Shown: positions 22,931-33,339 of the stretch, one piece after another
Layout of the letters: each line of letters begins with the position of its first letter
How positions within the stretch are numbered: the stretch's first letter is position 1
NCBI GenBank assembly: GCA_937899905.1
Contig: CALCCF010000056.1
Coordinates: 1 to 64,000, forward strand
Reading direction: 5' to 3'
From: an uncultured Phycisphaeraceae bacterium
GTDB taxonomy: Bacteria; Planctomycetota; Phycisphaerae; Phycisphaerales; UBA1924
Length of the DNA stretch: 64,000 nucleotides
The notes under the pieces: generated by a model
Told to the model about the DNA's origin: nothing
What the model saw: the letters and a program-made list of their open reading frames with translations, nothing else
Database searches by the model: none
Position numbers and translations under genes: made by a program

Positions 22931-24811
22931 TCAACCCGCAGAGCGGTCTCCGTCCCTTCCTTCATCGGCTTCTCCGCCAAGCAACTGTGTCCGGGCGAGA
23001 TCCTGGTACAGGTCGCATTGGGCCATCAGTGCATCGTGCGTGCCGATATCCACGACCCGGCCGGCGTCGAGCACCACGATCCGGTCCGCCCGTCGCACGG
23101 TGCTCAGGCGGTGGGCCACGACGATCGTGGTCCGGCCCTGGCTGAACTCGTCCATCGCCTCGTTGATCCGTGCCTCCGAGCCGGCGTCGATCATGCTCGT
23201 CGCCTCATCGAGGATCAGAATCGCCGGGTCGCGCAGCATCGCCCGAGCGATCGCCAGCCGCTGGCGCTGGCCTCCGGACAACGACGTGCCGCGCTCTGCG
23301 ATGTGCGCGTTGATGCCCTCAGGCAGCTGCTCGACAAACTCCATCGCTCGAGCACGCGTCAGAGCCGACTCTATCTGCACATCTGATGCGGTCGGCATGC
23401 CATACGCCACGTTTTCGCGCACCGAGCCCTCGAAGAGGACCGTCTCCTGGCTCACAACGCCCAGCTGCTTACGCAGCGAGCGAACCGACACGCTCGAGAG
23501 ATCCTGCCCGTCGACGCGCACGACTCCCTGCTCTGGGTCGTATAGGCGGTACAACAGGCCGAGTAGGGTGGTCTTGCCCGAACCGTTTGGCCCGACGATC
23601 GCCACTCGTTCGCCAAACTCGATGGTCAGGCTCACGCCGTTGACCGCCGGCTGGCGCGCGCCGGGATAGCGCACGTGCACGCCTTCGAGCTCGATCGAGC
23701 GCGTATGTCGTTGCAGGCGTGCGAGGCCGGCTTCGTGGCCGGGCTCGGGGGACGCGTTGAGCAATTCTTCTAACCGCTCCGCCGCCCCGGCGGACGTTTG
23801 CATGTCGTTGAGCAAGCCGGTGAGGGGCTTCAATGATGCGCCCGCGATCGCGAGCCCCGCCAAGACCTTCAAAACGTCCTGCGGTTCCAGCCGCTGTTGG
23901 TCGATCGCCCAAAATGCGACCAAGATTAGCACAACGAGCACCAGAACGGTCAGTACCTCCACGAAGGGCTTGGACAGCGCGCGTGCCGTCCGAGCCTTGA
24001 GCATCTGGTGATACACGCGTCGATTCGCAAGACTGAACCGGCGGGCCTCGCGTCGCTCGGCCGTGTACGCCTTGACCACGCGGAGCGCTTGTGCCGCCTC
24101 GGTTGCGATCGAGAGCAACTCGGAACGATGTCCCATCGCTCGCTTCGACGCGCGCTTGATGCGACGGCCAAAGTAGCGGATCACCGCCCAGACCGCCGGC
24201 GCGATCAGGATCGCGATCGCGGACAACTGCCAGTTGATGATGAACGCGAAAACAAGCGCACCAAGCCCCTTGGTCACTTGCGTTACGGCCTTGCTCACGA
24301 GCGCTTCGAAGCCATACGCCAGTTGCTCGGCGTCGGCGATGAGCCGGCTGACGGCGTCAGACCCGCCAACCGATCCGCCGTTCGAACTCGGGCCGCGCTG
24401 CGTCGCCAGCAGGGGCATGAAGAGCAACGAACGGAATGCTTGCCGCCGAACCCGCATGACCGTGCGGTGCACGACGGTCAGAGAGAGGAAGGCGTGCCCG
24501 AACTGGCATAGGCCCGCAAATACCGCAAGCCCCGCGACGATCGCGACGAGCAGCACCACGCTCGCCCACGCGTCCTCGGGCAGCCGGTCAACGACAAACG
24601 CCGGGATCTCAAACCCGCTGCCTTCGAGGTTGTGGGCCTGGGCCATCGGACGCAGCCCCTGCTTTTCCTCGAAGAGGCCATCGATGACCGGGGAAGCCGT
24701 CAGCAGACCAGCCGCGAGCCCGCCACCCGAGAGCATCGCGCAAACCAACGCCAGGACGAGGCGCCCCTTGAAGTCGAGCATGAGCCGTGCAAGTCGCCAG
24801 AAGGCCGGCAT
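22931..24811 (-). CDS. ABC exporter, fused TM and ATPase (MsbA/lipid-exporter type)
   Basis: I start at MPAFWRLARLMLDFKGR, where the type IV exporter fold begins; the upstream extension is unconvincing. The 626-residue half-transporter has six TMs (~1-370) with a ~60-residue extracytoplasmic segment between TM1 and TM2, then an ATPase: Walker A VGPNGSGKTT, signature LSGGQRQRLAIARA, Walker B ILILDEATS and switch His in VVAHRLS. It should act as a homodimer exporting a lipid or hydrophobic compound. It stands alone; the divergent gene starts 139 bases away. Confidence 0.92.
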   Translation of the reverse strand: MPAFWRLARLMLDFKGRLVLALVCAMLSGGGLAAGLLTASPVIDGLFEEKQGLRPMAQAHNLEGSGFEIPAFVVDRLPEDAWASVVLLVAIVAGLAVFAGLCQFGHAFLSLTVVHRTVMRVRRQAFRSLLFMPLLATQRGPSSNGGSVGGSDAVSRLIADAEQLAYGFEALVSKAVTQVTKGLGALVFAFIINWQLSAIAILIAPAVWAVIRYFGRRIKRASKRAMGHRSELLSIATEAAQALRVVKAYTAERREARRFSLANRRVYHQMLKARTARALSKPFVEVLTVLVLVVLILVAFWAIDQQRLEPQDVLKVLAGLAIAGASLKPLTGLLNDMQTSAGAAERLEELLNASPEPGHEAGLARLQRHTRSIELEGVHVRYPGARQPAVNGVSLTIEFGERVAIVGPNGSGKTTLLGLLYRLYDPEQGVVRVDGQDLSSVSVRSLRKQLGVVSQETVLFEGSVRENVAYGMPTASDVQIESALTRARAMEFVEQLPEGINAHIAERGTSLSGGQRQRLAIARAMLRDPAILILDEATSMIDAGSEARINEAMDEFSQGRTTIVVAHRLSTVRRADRIVVLDAGRVVDIGTHDALMAQCDLYQDLARTQLLGGEADEGRDGDRSAG

Positions 24812-24949
24812 GGACCCGGAGTATTGACGGTCAGCGGTGGACAAGCAATCGCATCGATCCATCTCCAAGCGGCAGCATGCCCACTTCGGAGAACCCAAAC
24901 AATCTACAATCAAAAGCGAGGCCGCTCGCCTACCCCCGGTGCAGTGCTC

Positions 24950-30996: not shown

Positions 30997-31680
30997 TTAT
31001 GACTCTCCCGAGTCCTCAGCCGGGGCCTCCGGCTCGGCCGTAGCCGTTGCGGCTTCGGCCTTTTCGCCGCCGCGGCCCTTGCGGAGCTCCGCGTTGCGGG
31101 CCGCACGCTTGTCGGCCTGGCGGCGGCGACGGCTGGGGTTGCCGCCGATCTCCGGGCCTTCCTCGGCACCGACGAACTGGATGACGCACATCTCCGTCGC
31201 GTCGCCCAGACGGTGGTAGCCGATGCGGACGATGCGGGTGTAGCCGCCTTGGCGGTCGGCGAAGCGCGGAGCCACGTTCTCGAAGATGTGGCGGACCAGA
31301 CGCGGGGACTTGCGCAGCTCGCCGTAGCGGTTGCGCTCGACCTCGTCGCTGGAGGGGATGTCGAAGTACTTCTCGGCCCGCTCGCGGAGCGCCGTGACGC
31401 GCTCGCGCTCGGCCGCGTTGTCCTCGCCCTTGGGCATGTAGAGCCACTCGAAGGCGCGGCGGTCGCGGCCGAGCATGGCGATCACCTGCCGACGGCTGTG
31501 GAGGTCGCCCTTCTTGGCCTTGGTGACGATCTTCTCGACAAGCGGCTGCAAGGCCTTGGCCTTGGGCACGCTGGTGACGATCTGGCCGTGCTCGAAGAGC
31601 GACGCGGCCATGTTGCGCAGCATCGCCTCGCGGTGCGTGCGGGTACGGCCGAGCTTGAAGCCTGCTTTGCGGTGACGCAT
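30997..31680 (-). CDS. rplQ: Ribosomal protein L17, extended
   Basis: The N-terminal MRHRKAGFKLGRTRTHREAMLRNMAASL and the C-terminal core GGYTRIVRIGYHRLGDATEMCVIQFV are classical L17, which lines the polypeptide exit tunnel. At 227 residues it is far longer than the ~120-130 of most bacteria. About 45 charged residues are inserted in the middle (~80-125, with GEDNAAERERVTALRERAEKYF), and ~55 residues rich in Arg, then Ala/Glu, extend the C-terminus. It is the last gene of the superoperon, 75 bases after rpoA. Confidence 0.95.
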   Translation of the reverse strand: MRHRKAGFKLGRTRTHREAMLRNMAASLFEHGQIVTSVPKAKALQPLVEKIVTKAKKGDLHSRRQVIAMLGRDRRAFEWLYMPKGEDNAAERERVTALRERAEKYFDIPSSDEVERNRYGELRKSPRLVRHIFENVAPRFADRQGGYTRIVRIGYHRLGDATEMCVIQFVGAEEGPEIGGNPSRRRRQADKRAARNAELRKGRGGEKAEAATATAEPEAPAEDSGES

Positions 31681-31755: not shown

Positions 31756-32766
31756 TTACAGCTGCACGACCTCAGGCTGGTACCCCTCGGGGAGGTCCAT
31801 GCCGAGCTCCAGGCCCATCTCGTTGAGCTTCTTCTTGACCTCGCGGAGGCTCGTGCGGCCGAACGAACGGAGCTTGAGCAGCTCGTTCTCGGTCTGCATG
31901 ATGACCTGGCCGACCGAGTAGAGGCGGGCGCTCTCCAGGCAGTTGCTGGCCCGGACAGAGAGCTCCAGCTCGCTGATGGGCATGTTGAGCTTGCGGATGA
32001 GGCCCTCGTCGACGCCGGCGGCCGCGGCGGCCTCCTCGCTCACACGCTCCTGGCCCAGCTCGAAGTACTGCACGAACGGGTTGAGGTGCTTGCGGAGGAT
32101 CTTGCCGGCCTCGACCAGCGACATCTCCGGGGTGATCGTGCCGTCGGTCCAGATGTCCATCGACAGCTTGTCGTAGTTGGTGCGCTGGCCGACGCGGGTG
32201 TTCTCCACGTGGTACCGCACGCGGTGGACCGGGCTGAAGATCGAGTCGACGGCGATCAGGCCGATGTCCTGCTCGTCGCGGCGGCTCAGGTGCTCGCTGG
32301 CGGGCACGTACCCGCGGCCCTTGGCCACGTGCAGCTCCATCTCGAAGTCGATCTCGCTGGTCAGCGTGCAGATCGTCAGGTCCTTGTTGACGATCTCGAC
32401 GTTGGTGTCCGCCTCGATCAGGTCGGCGGTGACCTCGCCGGGGCCCTGCGCCGCCAGGTGCATGACGCGGGGCTCGTCGCCCTCGAGCTTGAGCACCAGG
32501 TTCTTGATGTTGAGCACCAGGTCGGTGACGTCCTCGAGCACGCCGGGGAGCGTCTCGAACTCGTGGCTGGCGCCCTTGATCTTGACGGCCGTAACGGCGG
32601 CGCCCTCGATCGAGCTCAGCAGAATGCGACGGAGGCTGTTGCCGATGGTCGTCCCGAAGCCACGCTCGAAGGGCTCGACGGTGAAGCGACCGAAGGTGGT
32701 GTTGTTGAACTTGGGATCGGCCACCACATGGGTGGGCAACTCGAGACCACGCCAGCGTACACGCAT
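31756..32766 (-). CDS. rpoA: RNA polymerase alpha subunit
   Basis: I start at MRVRWRGLELP, with AGAGG seven bases upstream; an ATG two codons earlier is too near that site. The 336-residue protein has the dimerisation N-terminal domain (FGRFTVEPFERGFGTTIGNSLRRILLSS) and the DNA/activator-binding CTD (SVRASNCLESARLYSVGQVI, FGRTSLREVKKKLNEMGLELGM). The preceding 195-base gap, where rpsD usually sits, contains a predicted pseudoknot ending ~21 bases before the start, so translation may be regulated separately. Confidence 0.97.
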   Translation of the reverse strand: MRVRWRGLELPTHVVADPKFNNTTFGRFTVEPFERGFGTTIGNSLRRILLSSIEGAAVTAVKIKGASHEFETLPGVLEDVTDLVLNIKNLVLKLEGDEPRVMHLAAQGPGEVTADLIEADTNVEIVNKDLTICTLTSEIDFEMELHVAKGRGYVPASEHLSRRDEQDIGLIAVDSIFSPVHRVRYHVENTRVGQRTNYDKLSMDIWTDGTITPEMSLVEAGKILRKHLNPFVQYFELGQERVSEEAAAAAGVDEGLIRKLNMPISELELSVRASNCLESARLYSVGQVIMQTENELLKLRSFGRTSLREVKKKLNEMGLELGMDLPEGYQPEVVQL

Positions 32767-32787
32767 GGGCATACCTCTTTCTTGGTC

Positions 32788-32864
32788 GACCGGTGGAAGC
32801 CGAAATGGGCCTGACGCTCGTCGGCTCTCGGATCCGCACCCTACCACCGGTCTTGTGGGGTGCG
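32788..32864 (-). promoter_or_regulatory. Predicted H-type RNA pseudoknot upstream of rpoA
   Basis: On the minus-strand RNA, two perfect helices interleave. Helix A is 7 bp, CGCACCC at 32864-32858 with GGGTGCG at 32841-32835. Helix B is 9 bp, GACCGGTGG at 32852-32844 with CCACCGGTC at 32796-32788. The order A5'-B5'-A3'-B3' is pseudoknot topology. Only two bases separate B5' from A3', which allows coaxial stacking, and the last connector is 38 bases. The downstream arm ends ~13 bases before the rpoA ribosome site. The two helices could also be alternative folds. Confidence 0.55.
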
Positions 32865-32961
32865 CTCCTGCTGTCCGGCGCGTCTCGTTCTCGAACGAAA
32901 CCGTCTCTGAGCCGCTAGGCCCCGAGGCGGGTGTCTCTCAAATCCCCGCGATCCAGTTCGG

Positions 32962-33339
32962 TCAGACGCGCCGCTTCTTGGGCGGGCGGCAGCCGTTGTG
33001 CGGCACTGGGGTGTGGTCTTCGATAGCCGTGACGCGGATGCCCGTGGACACCACGCCGTTGACGGCCGCCTCGCGACCGCCGCCGGTGCCGCGGATGCGG
33101 ACCTCGGCCTCGGTCAGGCCCATCTTGCGGACCTTGTGGCCCACGCTCTCGCCGGCTCGCGTGGCCGCGAAGGGCGTGGCCTTGCGGGCGCCCTTGAAGC
33201 CGATGGTGCCGGCCGAGTCCCAGGCGAGGGTCTCGCCGTTGGTATCGGTGATGGTGATCATCGTGTTGTTGCTGGTGGCCTTCACGTGGATGATGCCACG
33301 GACAACGTTCTTGCGGACCTTCTTGGTCTTTTTCGCCAT
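32962..33339 (-). CDS. rpsK: Ribosomal protein S11
   Basis: The 125-residue small-subunit platform protein has NNTMITITDTNGETLAWDSAG, RKATPFAA, VRIRGTGGGREAA and the C-terminal DHTPVPHNGCRPPKKRRV, all canonical. The N-terminus MAKKTKKVRKNV is basic. It is followed not by rpsD but by a structured 195-base spacer and rpoA. Confidence 0.97.
   Translation of the reverse strand: MAKKTKKVRKNVVRGIIHVKATSNNTMITITDTNGETLAWDSAGTIGFKGARKATPFAATRAGESVGHKVRKMGLTEAEVRIRGTGGGREAAVNGVVSTGIRVTAIEDHTPVPHNGCRPPKKRRV

Follow-up and report, generated by a model that had tools for sequence, protein, structure and literature searches.

The helices of the S4-binding pseudoknot in the Escherichia coli alpha operon mRNA (RF00140, Alpha_RBS) reach into the coding region. 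Alpha_RBS sits at the head of the operon (rpsM), whereas the element described here lies between rpsK and rpoA. According to the passages on this cluster in a 2024 review (PMC10931766), the E. coli alpha cistron is regulated independently, and the review describes how the alpha cluster is controlled in Bacilli, whose rpsD is located elsewhere, as unknown. We describe a concrete rpoA element, with a defined predicted binding loop and a knot, in a lineage with rpsD elsewhere.

In the window (the whole 64,000-nt stretch of DNA analysed here, from an uncultured Phycisphaeraceae bacterium), the alpha operon runs on the minus strand in the order rpsM, rpsK, spacer, rpoA, rplQ:

33838-33461, minus strand: rpsM
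33339-32962, minus strand: rpsK
31756..32766, minus strand: rpoA (RNA polymerase alpha), the presumed target, starting at the second ATG
30997..31680, minus strand: rplQ (L17), next downstream of rpoA

Of the possible rpoA starts, the second ATG (32766-32764) is the conserved one, with most relatives aligning from RpoA residue 2 or 3, and the rpsK-rpoA spacer is 195 nt long (32961-32767). A previous sequence-only reading of this DNA had noted that rpsD is missing from the cluster; indeed, the genome's own rpsD lies on a different contig (C102). It had also placed two interleaved helices of 7 and 9 bp, with a 2-nt junction, in the spacer, and both are present on the minus strand exactly where it had put them. 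In Helix B (7 bp), 32864-32858 pairs with 32841-32835; in Helix A (9 bp), interleaved with Helix B, 32852-32844 pairs with 32796-32788, and 2 nt separate 32844 from 32841 at the junction of the two helices. A hairpin loop pairs with a segment outside its hairpin, as in an H-type pseudoknot. The last arm lies upstream of the rpoA ribosome site as had been read, but at 9 nt from AGAGG (32778-32774) rather than at ~13.

In GC-rich DNA, such an arrangement could arise by chance. Of 2000 dinucleotide shuffles of the spacer, 20 (1%) contained two perfect, interleaved helices with minimum lengths of 7 and 9 bp, and a pair of the same size occurs in 33 (5%) of the 639 segments of 195 nt taken from the 64 kb, so the evidence from the single sequence is modest. 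Nothing in Rfam 15 matches at the element, even at E<=5, and no description of this rpoA leader was found in the literature searched (open-licence papers only).

Beyond the two helices, the folded leader is enclosed by a further helix (P1) and carries an internal loop that is conserved (5' nCAGMA / 3' GNKAR); neither was in the sequence-only reading. The parts of the leader are:

32880..32884, minus strand: outer 5' arm of P1 (GACGC), pairing with 32813-32817 across a 2-nt bulge; by eye
32875..32879, minus strand: inner 5' arm of P1 (GCCGG), pairing with 32820-32824 with one C.A mismatch; P1 covariation
32869..32874, minus strand: 5' strand of the conserved internal loop (ACAGCA; order consensus nCAGMA)
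32867..32868, minus strand: base of P2 (GG), pairing with 32830-32831
32858..32864, minus strand: 5' arm of P2, the 7-bp helix read before; covariation in the genus in 5 of 7 pairs
32844..32852, minus strand: 5' arm of the pseudoknot, in the P2 loop (9-bp helix); covariation in the genus in 6 of 9 pairs, and permutation test on 72 leaders
32835..32841, minus strand: 3' arm of P2
32830..32831, minus strand: base of P2 (CC)
32825..32829, minus strand: 3' strand of the conserved internal loop (GAGAG; order consensus GNKAR)
32820..32824, minus strand: inner 3' arm of P1 (CCGAC)
32813..32817, minus strand: outer 3' arm of P1 (GCGTC); by eye
32797..32812, minus strand: P3, a small hairpin in the linker from P1 to the last arm (AGGCC/GGCTT, with one G-T); by eye
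32788..32796, minus strand: 3' arm of the pseudoknot (the last arm)
32774..32778, minus strand: Shine-Dalgarno sequence of rpoA (AGAGG); read directly

The architecture common to most loci of the order is, 5' to 3', P1, nCAGMA, P2, GNKAR, the close of P1, often P3, and the last arm, with the P2 loop pairing with a segment near the rpoA Shine-Dalgarno sequence. The outer part of P1 differs in length between relatives, and the linker hairpin P3 exceeds its shuffled mean in 59 of 67 leaders. We predict that the conserved internal loop is likely a protein-binding site. A kink-turn reading of this loop was rejected by eye, the spacing being unsuited.

Covariation of both helices among relatives had been proposed as the check on the knot, and in an alignment of seven members of the genus both helices do covary. 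Whole leaders were aligned with MAFFT on sequence, free of any pattern-based choice of seeds; it was the window's own structure that was scored, so the test leans to the window's row. Changes on both sides were found in 14 of 22 pairs (5/7 in the 7-bp helix and 6/9 in the 9-bp helix), and 92.0% of cells were paired compared with 77.2% in shuffles, with 0/500 shuffles reaching any of five measures. Sliding by one column cut pairing to 46.2% or 38.7%, and slides of 1-3 columns destroyed the signal.

For the order, 98 rpoA upstream loci were read, including one (L013) with almost no spacer. As seeds, 55 cores were selected from those found, 16 of which had been marked as bad on manual inspection; an alignment of 49 of these 55 gave R1, a model of the element core. 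The 49 were chosen by a pattern that required parts of the internal loop and favoured P1 pairing, and the invariance of the loop and the P1 percentage are therefore inflated among them. In this set, P1 with the P2 base gave a covariation score of 0.695 versus 0.178 (0/500 shuffles). The second P2 base pair is GC in 35 sequences, CG in 10, AU in 4 and broken in 0; of five measures, two were reached by shuffles, the number of changed pairs (184/500) and the number of pair types (21/500).

The knot was examined by permutation in 72 leaders, these being the non-redundant ones among the 78 left when 5 matches outside the leader were removed from 83 R1 matches. The complementarity of the loop to its own last arm averaged 20.8, versus 16.5 between species, and none of 10,000 between-species re-pairings reached the own-species mean. 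The P2 arms behaved similarly (17.5 own versus 12.7 between species; 0/10,000 re-pairings). Taken species by species, the own knot partner beat 95% of foreign ones in only 19 or 22 of the 72, this test being weaker than the average because many leaders share GCAGC/GCTGC; for the P2 arms the own partner beat 95% of the others in 24/72. The best knot helix is at least 6 bp long in 70 of the 72 leaders, and 62 of the 72 arms differ in sequence. Across species, P1, P2 and the knot all show compensatory changes, which refutes chance pairing, a reading that we regard as highly improbable; sequence comparison gives us high confidence that the pseudoknot before rpoA is real.

An RpoA match was obtained in 100 of the 101 genomes of the window's own genus, family and order. 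The rpsK-rpoA spacers in the order range from 108 to 443 nt, and tblastn placed rpsD in none of the 98 loci. R1 matches the rpoA leader in 78 of these 98 loci at E<=0.1. Of the 20 without a match at this threshold, one reflects a contig end and several resemble the element by eye but were left uncounted. In the window's own genome, R1 hits this site alone at E<=1 (150 candidates scored). Matches at the start of rplQ (window 31619-31677; L002, L003, L004 and L005) were rejected as a second site: they are weak, occur in four genus members and fall on conserved L17 N-terminal codons, codons that differ elsewhere.

The covarying fold keeps a fixed place before rpoA: between the end of the last arm and the residue-1 position of RpoA lies a median of 11 nt, or 17 nt if the start is at residue 3. 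Being so near the rpoA start, a formed knot would sit against the ribosome site, and since the last arm lies just 5' of the Shine-Dalgarno sequence, control of rpoA translation is the best reading. Read from its sequence, the element quite probably acts in cis to control translation of rpoA. The conserved internal loop, which most likely binds protein, would be framed by P1 and by P2, the pseudoknot hairpin, while the apical loop of P2 would pair with the segment just 5' of the rpoA Shine-Dalgarno sequence. Once the knot had formed and its ligand kept it in place, the 30S subunit would be kept off or trapped, and a blocked 30S subunit would mean less alpha, with any coupled rplQ. That the ligand is a protein, the direction of control, and translation rather than transcription as its level are what we infer. 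In locus L224, where rplQ sits elsewhere, rpoA still follows the leader.

A transcription attenuator or terminator between rpsK and rpoA, acting instead of translational control, would draw on the terminator-like hairpins that follow rpsK in 31 of 97 spacers, compared with 98 of 485 simple shuffles, some with stems of 10-13 bp. Most of these hairpins lie upstream of the element, however, and a stricter scan of 32700-33000 found neither a terminator-like nor a sigma-70-like site, leaving the window's spacer without one; we consider attenuation quite unlikely. A GC-rich hairpin followed by a T-rich stretch is seen after rpsK in, for example, L010, L014, L021, L038, L043, L047, L053, L077 and L086, and the post-rpsK hairpins hint that some species may transcribe rpoA separately.

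Returning to translational control of rpoA, the relation of the element to rpsD can be judged from other lineages. The sequence-only reading had the knot taking the place of rpsD. That a covarying knot lies next to the ribosome site of rpoA, in a gene cluster lacking rpsD, was borne out, but that it stands in lieu of rpsD was not: a hairpin with a similar loop also lies between rpsD and rpoA in other lineages (L188, on the same contig as L268, and L189, L198, L250, L254, L277 and L280). Among 31 named loci with rpsD upstream, the hairpin was found in L250, L254, L268, L277 and L280 (p 0.02) and in L244 (0.05). Because it occurs where rpsD is directly upstream, the element goes with rpoA and not with the absence of rpsD.

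In a scan of the class with stricter filters, R1 matched in 49 of 298 genomes at E<=0.1, a poor measure of spread because these filters missed even the window's own genome. Among the named loci, 28 of 48 gave a leader match at E<=1 (48 of 80 fetched; 13 of the 80 duplicate contigs already in the set), and the matched loci are mostly labelled Phycisphaeraceae and Phycisphaerales, or Planctomycetota. Three loci (L206, L261 and L263) are labelled Cyanobacteria or Singulisphaera, yet their RpoA and, by eye, their leader look like Phycisphaerales; the labels of these metagenome bins may be wrong.

R1 does not match 40 loci from other families and orders of the class (best E 3), hand-picked from the class genomes at a few per family, and the class-wide claim therefore rests on a pattern search with shuffles. 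A hairpin before rpoA, with a single internal loop that has a CAGA-like strand on its 5' side and GNNA on its 3' side, was found in 11 of the 40 at p<=0.05 (60 shuffles per locus, floor 1/61; the decomposition of L190, among the 11, is doubted). Within the order, this search picks out 49 of the 98 loci, and many families of the class show nothing like the hairpin; a pattern that already requires part of the loop cannot prove homology across the class. In family f11, L168 and L170 have the hairpin with no rpsD between rpsK and rpoA, the P2 loop of the f11 loci is small, and no knot was seen in them. In 10 of 13 hand-delimited P2 loops from other orders (seen among L173, L184, L188-L190, L198, L250, L254, L277 and L280), a GGCC faces a ribosome site that reads GGAGGCC or similar, and the loop could close the site directly. 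Pairing of the loop with the Shine-Dalgarno sequence in other orders is not claimed, the complementarity being 13.3 versus 12.7 shuffled and below the 14.3 between species.

As to the ligand, S4 made elsewhere would fit if the internal loop copies its site in 16S helix 16 (h16), in which case free S4 would repress rpoA and tie polymerase to ribosome assembly. We take h16 to be part of the S4 site on 16S. In the C31 16S, h16 reads GTGG-GATGAA-GGCGC..GCGTC-GTAAA-CCAC, with the same 6/5 loop geometry, and on the loop profile it scores 2.8 bits, ranking 3/258 among candidate loops in the C31 16S and 2/239 in the C97 16S. The leader members score 4.8 to 16.9, however, all above h16; the best 23S loop likewise reaches 2.8 bits, a looser pattern finds one further site in the C31 16S and two in 23S, and loop position 61, an A in h16, is A in only 2 of 78 leaders. 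The assembly has two quite different 16S genes (G000:C97, L201, GAAGAC..GTAAA, and G000:C31, L202, GATGAA..GTAAA), one of which may be a contaminant. The passages of the 2024 review that concern S4 give its site as the five-way junction of the 16S 5' domain and have the E. coli alpha cistron unaffected by S4 (PMC10931766), the latter against S4 as the ligand. In its favour, the sections of Eckert and Weinberg (PMC7247131) on S4 report proposed leaders before rpsD-rpoA-rplQ in Bacteroidia and Flavobacteria, and proposed GUAA mimicry in leaders of Firmicutes and Fusobacteria.

Also against S4, rpsD is preceded by a conserved leader distinct from the rpoA one, and the element is absent from the rpsD leader in 30 loci, where R1 gave nine weak matches (best E 0.18), none of them in that leader. 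An S4 leader with 16S mimicry would be expected either to regulate a transcript that includes rpsD or to recur in front of rpsD, and neither was found. The rpsD leader of the order is unlike that of rpoA and carries CCGCAGYCGYGG and GATCG, a pattern present in 21 of the 30 loci (2 not read, 15 aligned; the leader is described by pattern). In G000:C102 (about 24750-24857) and in L001/L131-L160, CCGCAGYCGYGG lies in a likely hairpin, followed by GATCG, a second hairpin and a GACGGAG ribosome site; L140 and L143 have, by eye, a covarying form. The stretch GCAGCCGCGG of the rpsD leader region is also present in 16S, at a site that is presumably the 530 loop. The rpsD leader, which has no Rfam match in L001, is possibly an S4 leader. 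S4 as the ligand of the rpoA element we regard as possible but doubtful.

Self-regulation by L17 (rplQ), the only ribosomal protein encoded directly downstream, would agree with the rule, as worded in the portion of PMC7247131 on leaders and their ligands, that ligands lie in the regulated transcript, and with the L17 leaders proposed there in other phyla. An L17 tblastn match lies 22 to 1019 nt past the rpoA match in 108 of 110 loci, a set in which at least four contigs are counted twice and L276 ends too early to tell. L224 (JALHNK010000099.1), however, keeps the leader without rplQ in the 3 kb past rpoA; at 1253-1400 its rpoA is followed by an 11-bp terminator-like hairpin (1.4 expected by chance in the scan) and then an unrelated frame, and the only L17 match in this genome comes from a different contig, with no rpoA nearby. 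L224 is one metagenome-assembled genome, and its leader is a weak R1 match (10.5 bits) with a 5-6 bp knot by eye. Because L224 has rplQ elsewhere and the leader kept, L17 self-regulation is weakened, and it appears unlikely.

Some other ligand, whether RpoA or polymerase itself, S11 or S13, or a small molecule, is quite conceivable, if short of probable: rpoA is the constant target and the evidence for S4 and L17 is thin, but nothing positive was found here for RpoA or polymerase, S11, S13 or a small molecule. As an estimate, S4 would take a minor share of the likelihood, L17 a small one and other ligands the rest.

If translational control of rpoA is true, alpha can own a leader separate from the surrounding ribosomal proteins. 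More speculatively, and in our view rather doubtfully, the element may belong to a leader class devoted to the polymerase subunit, with rpoA as constant target and a ligand encoded in a separate transcript (polymerase itself or, by mimicry of h16, S4). How ribosome assembly stands would then determine polymerase synthesis in the class Phycisphaerae; on this view, Phycisphaerales gained the knot after the hairpin had shifted upstream, as a means of holding it in contact with the ribosome site.

The element is predicted to work like a ribosomal-protein leader: as in such leaders generally, a conserved covarying structure precedes the same operon genes, while with regard to a ligand encoded in the transcript, rplQ is downstream in 108/110 loci and absent after rpoA in L224. 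As they are described in the relevant sections of Eckert and Weinberg 2020 (PMC7247131), the S4 leaders of Bacteroidia and Flavobacteria regulate rpsD, rpoA and rplQ from a like place after rpsK, but they precede rpsD and are described as hairpins, whereas the present operon is without rpsD. The S4 leaders of Firmicutes and Fusobacteria with GUAA mimicry, compared by description in the same source, likewise have a conserved G-N-N-A strand that is maybe a 16S copy; the strand of the present element is mostly GNGA or GNTA instead, and the Firmicutes leader acts on rpsD and the Fusobacteriales one on the whole operon, whereas the present element lies before rpoA. The L17 leader of Actino- and Proteobacteria, again compared by its description there (PMC7247131), is likewise at the rpoA-rplQ end of the cluster but regulates rplQ, while the presumed target here is rpoA. 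The RF00140 covariance model gives no hit in 32700-33050 up to E 5, and in 20 relatives it gives six sub-threshold hits (21-23 bits versus 38), none at the rpoA leader; their positions, estimated from the rpsK coordinates, are close to the start of rpsM. Position and model match thus fail for the E. coli S4 pseudoknot, which is nonetheless the nearest relative in kind, being, like the present element, a pseudoknot located at a ribosome binding site in the leader of an mRNA from this gene cluster.
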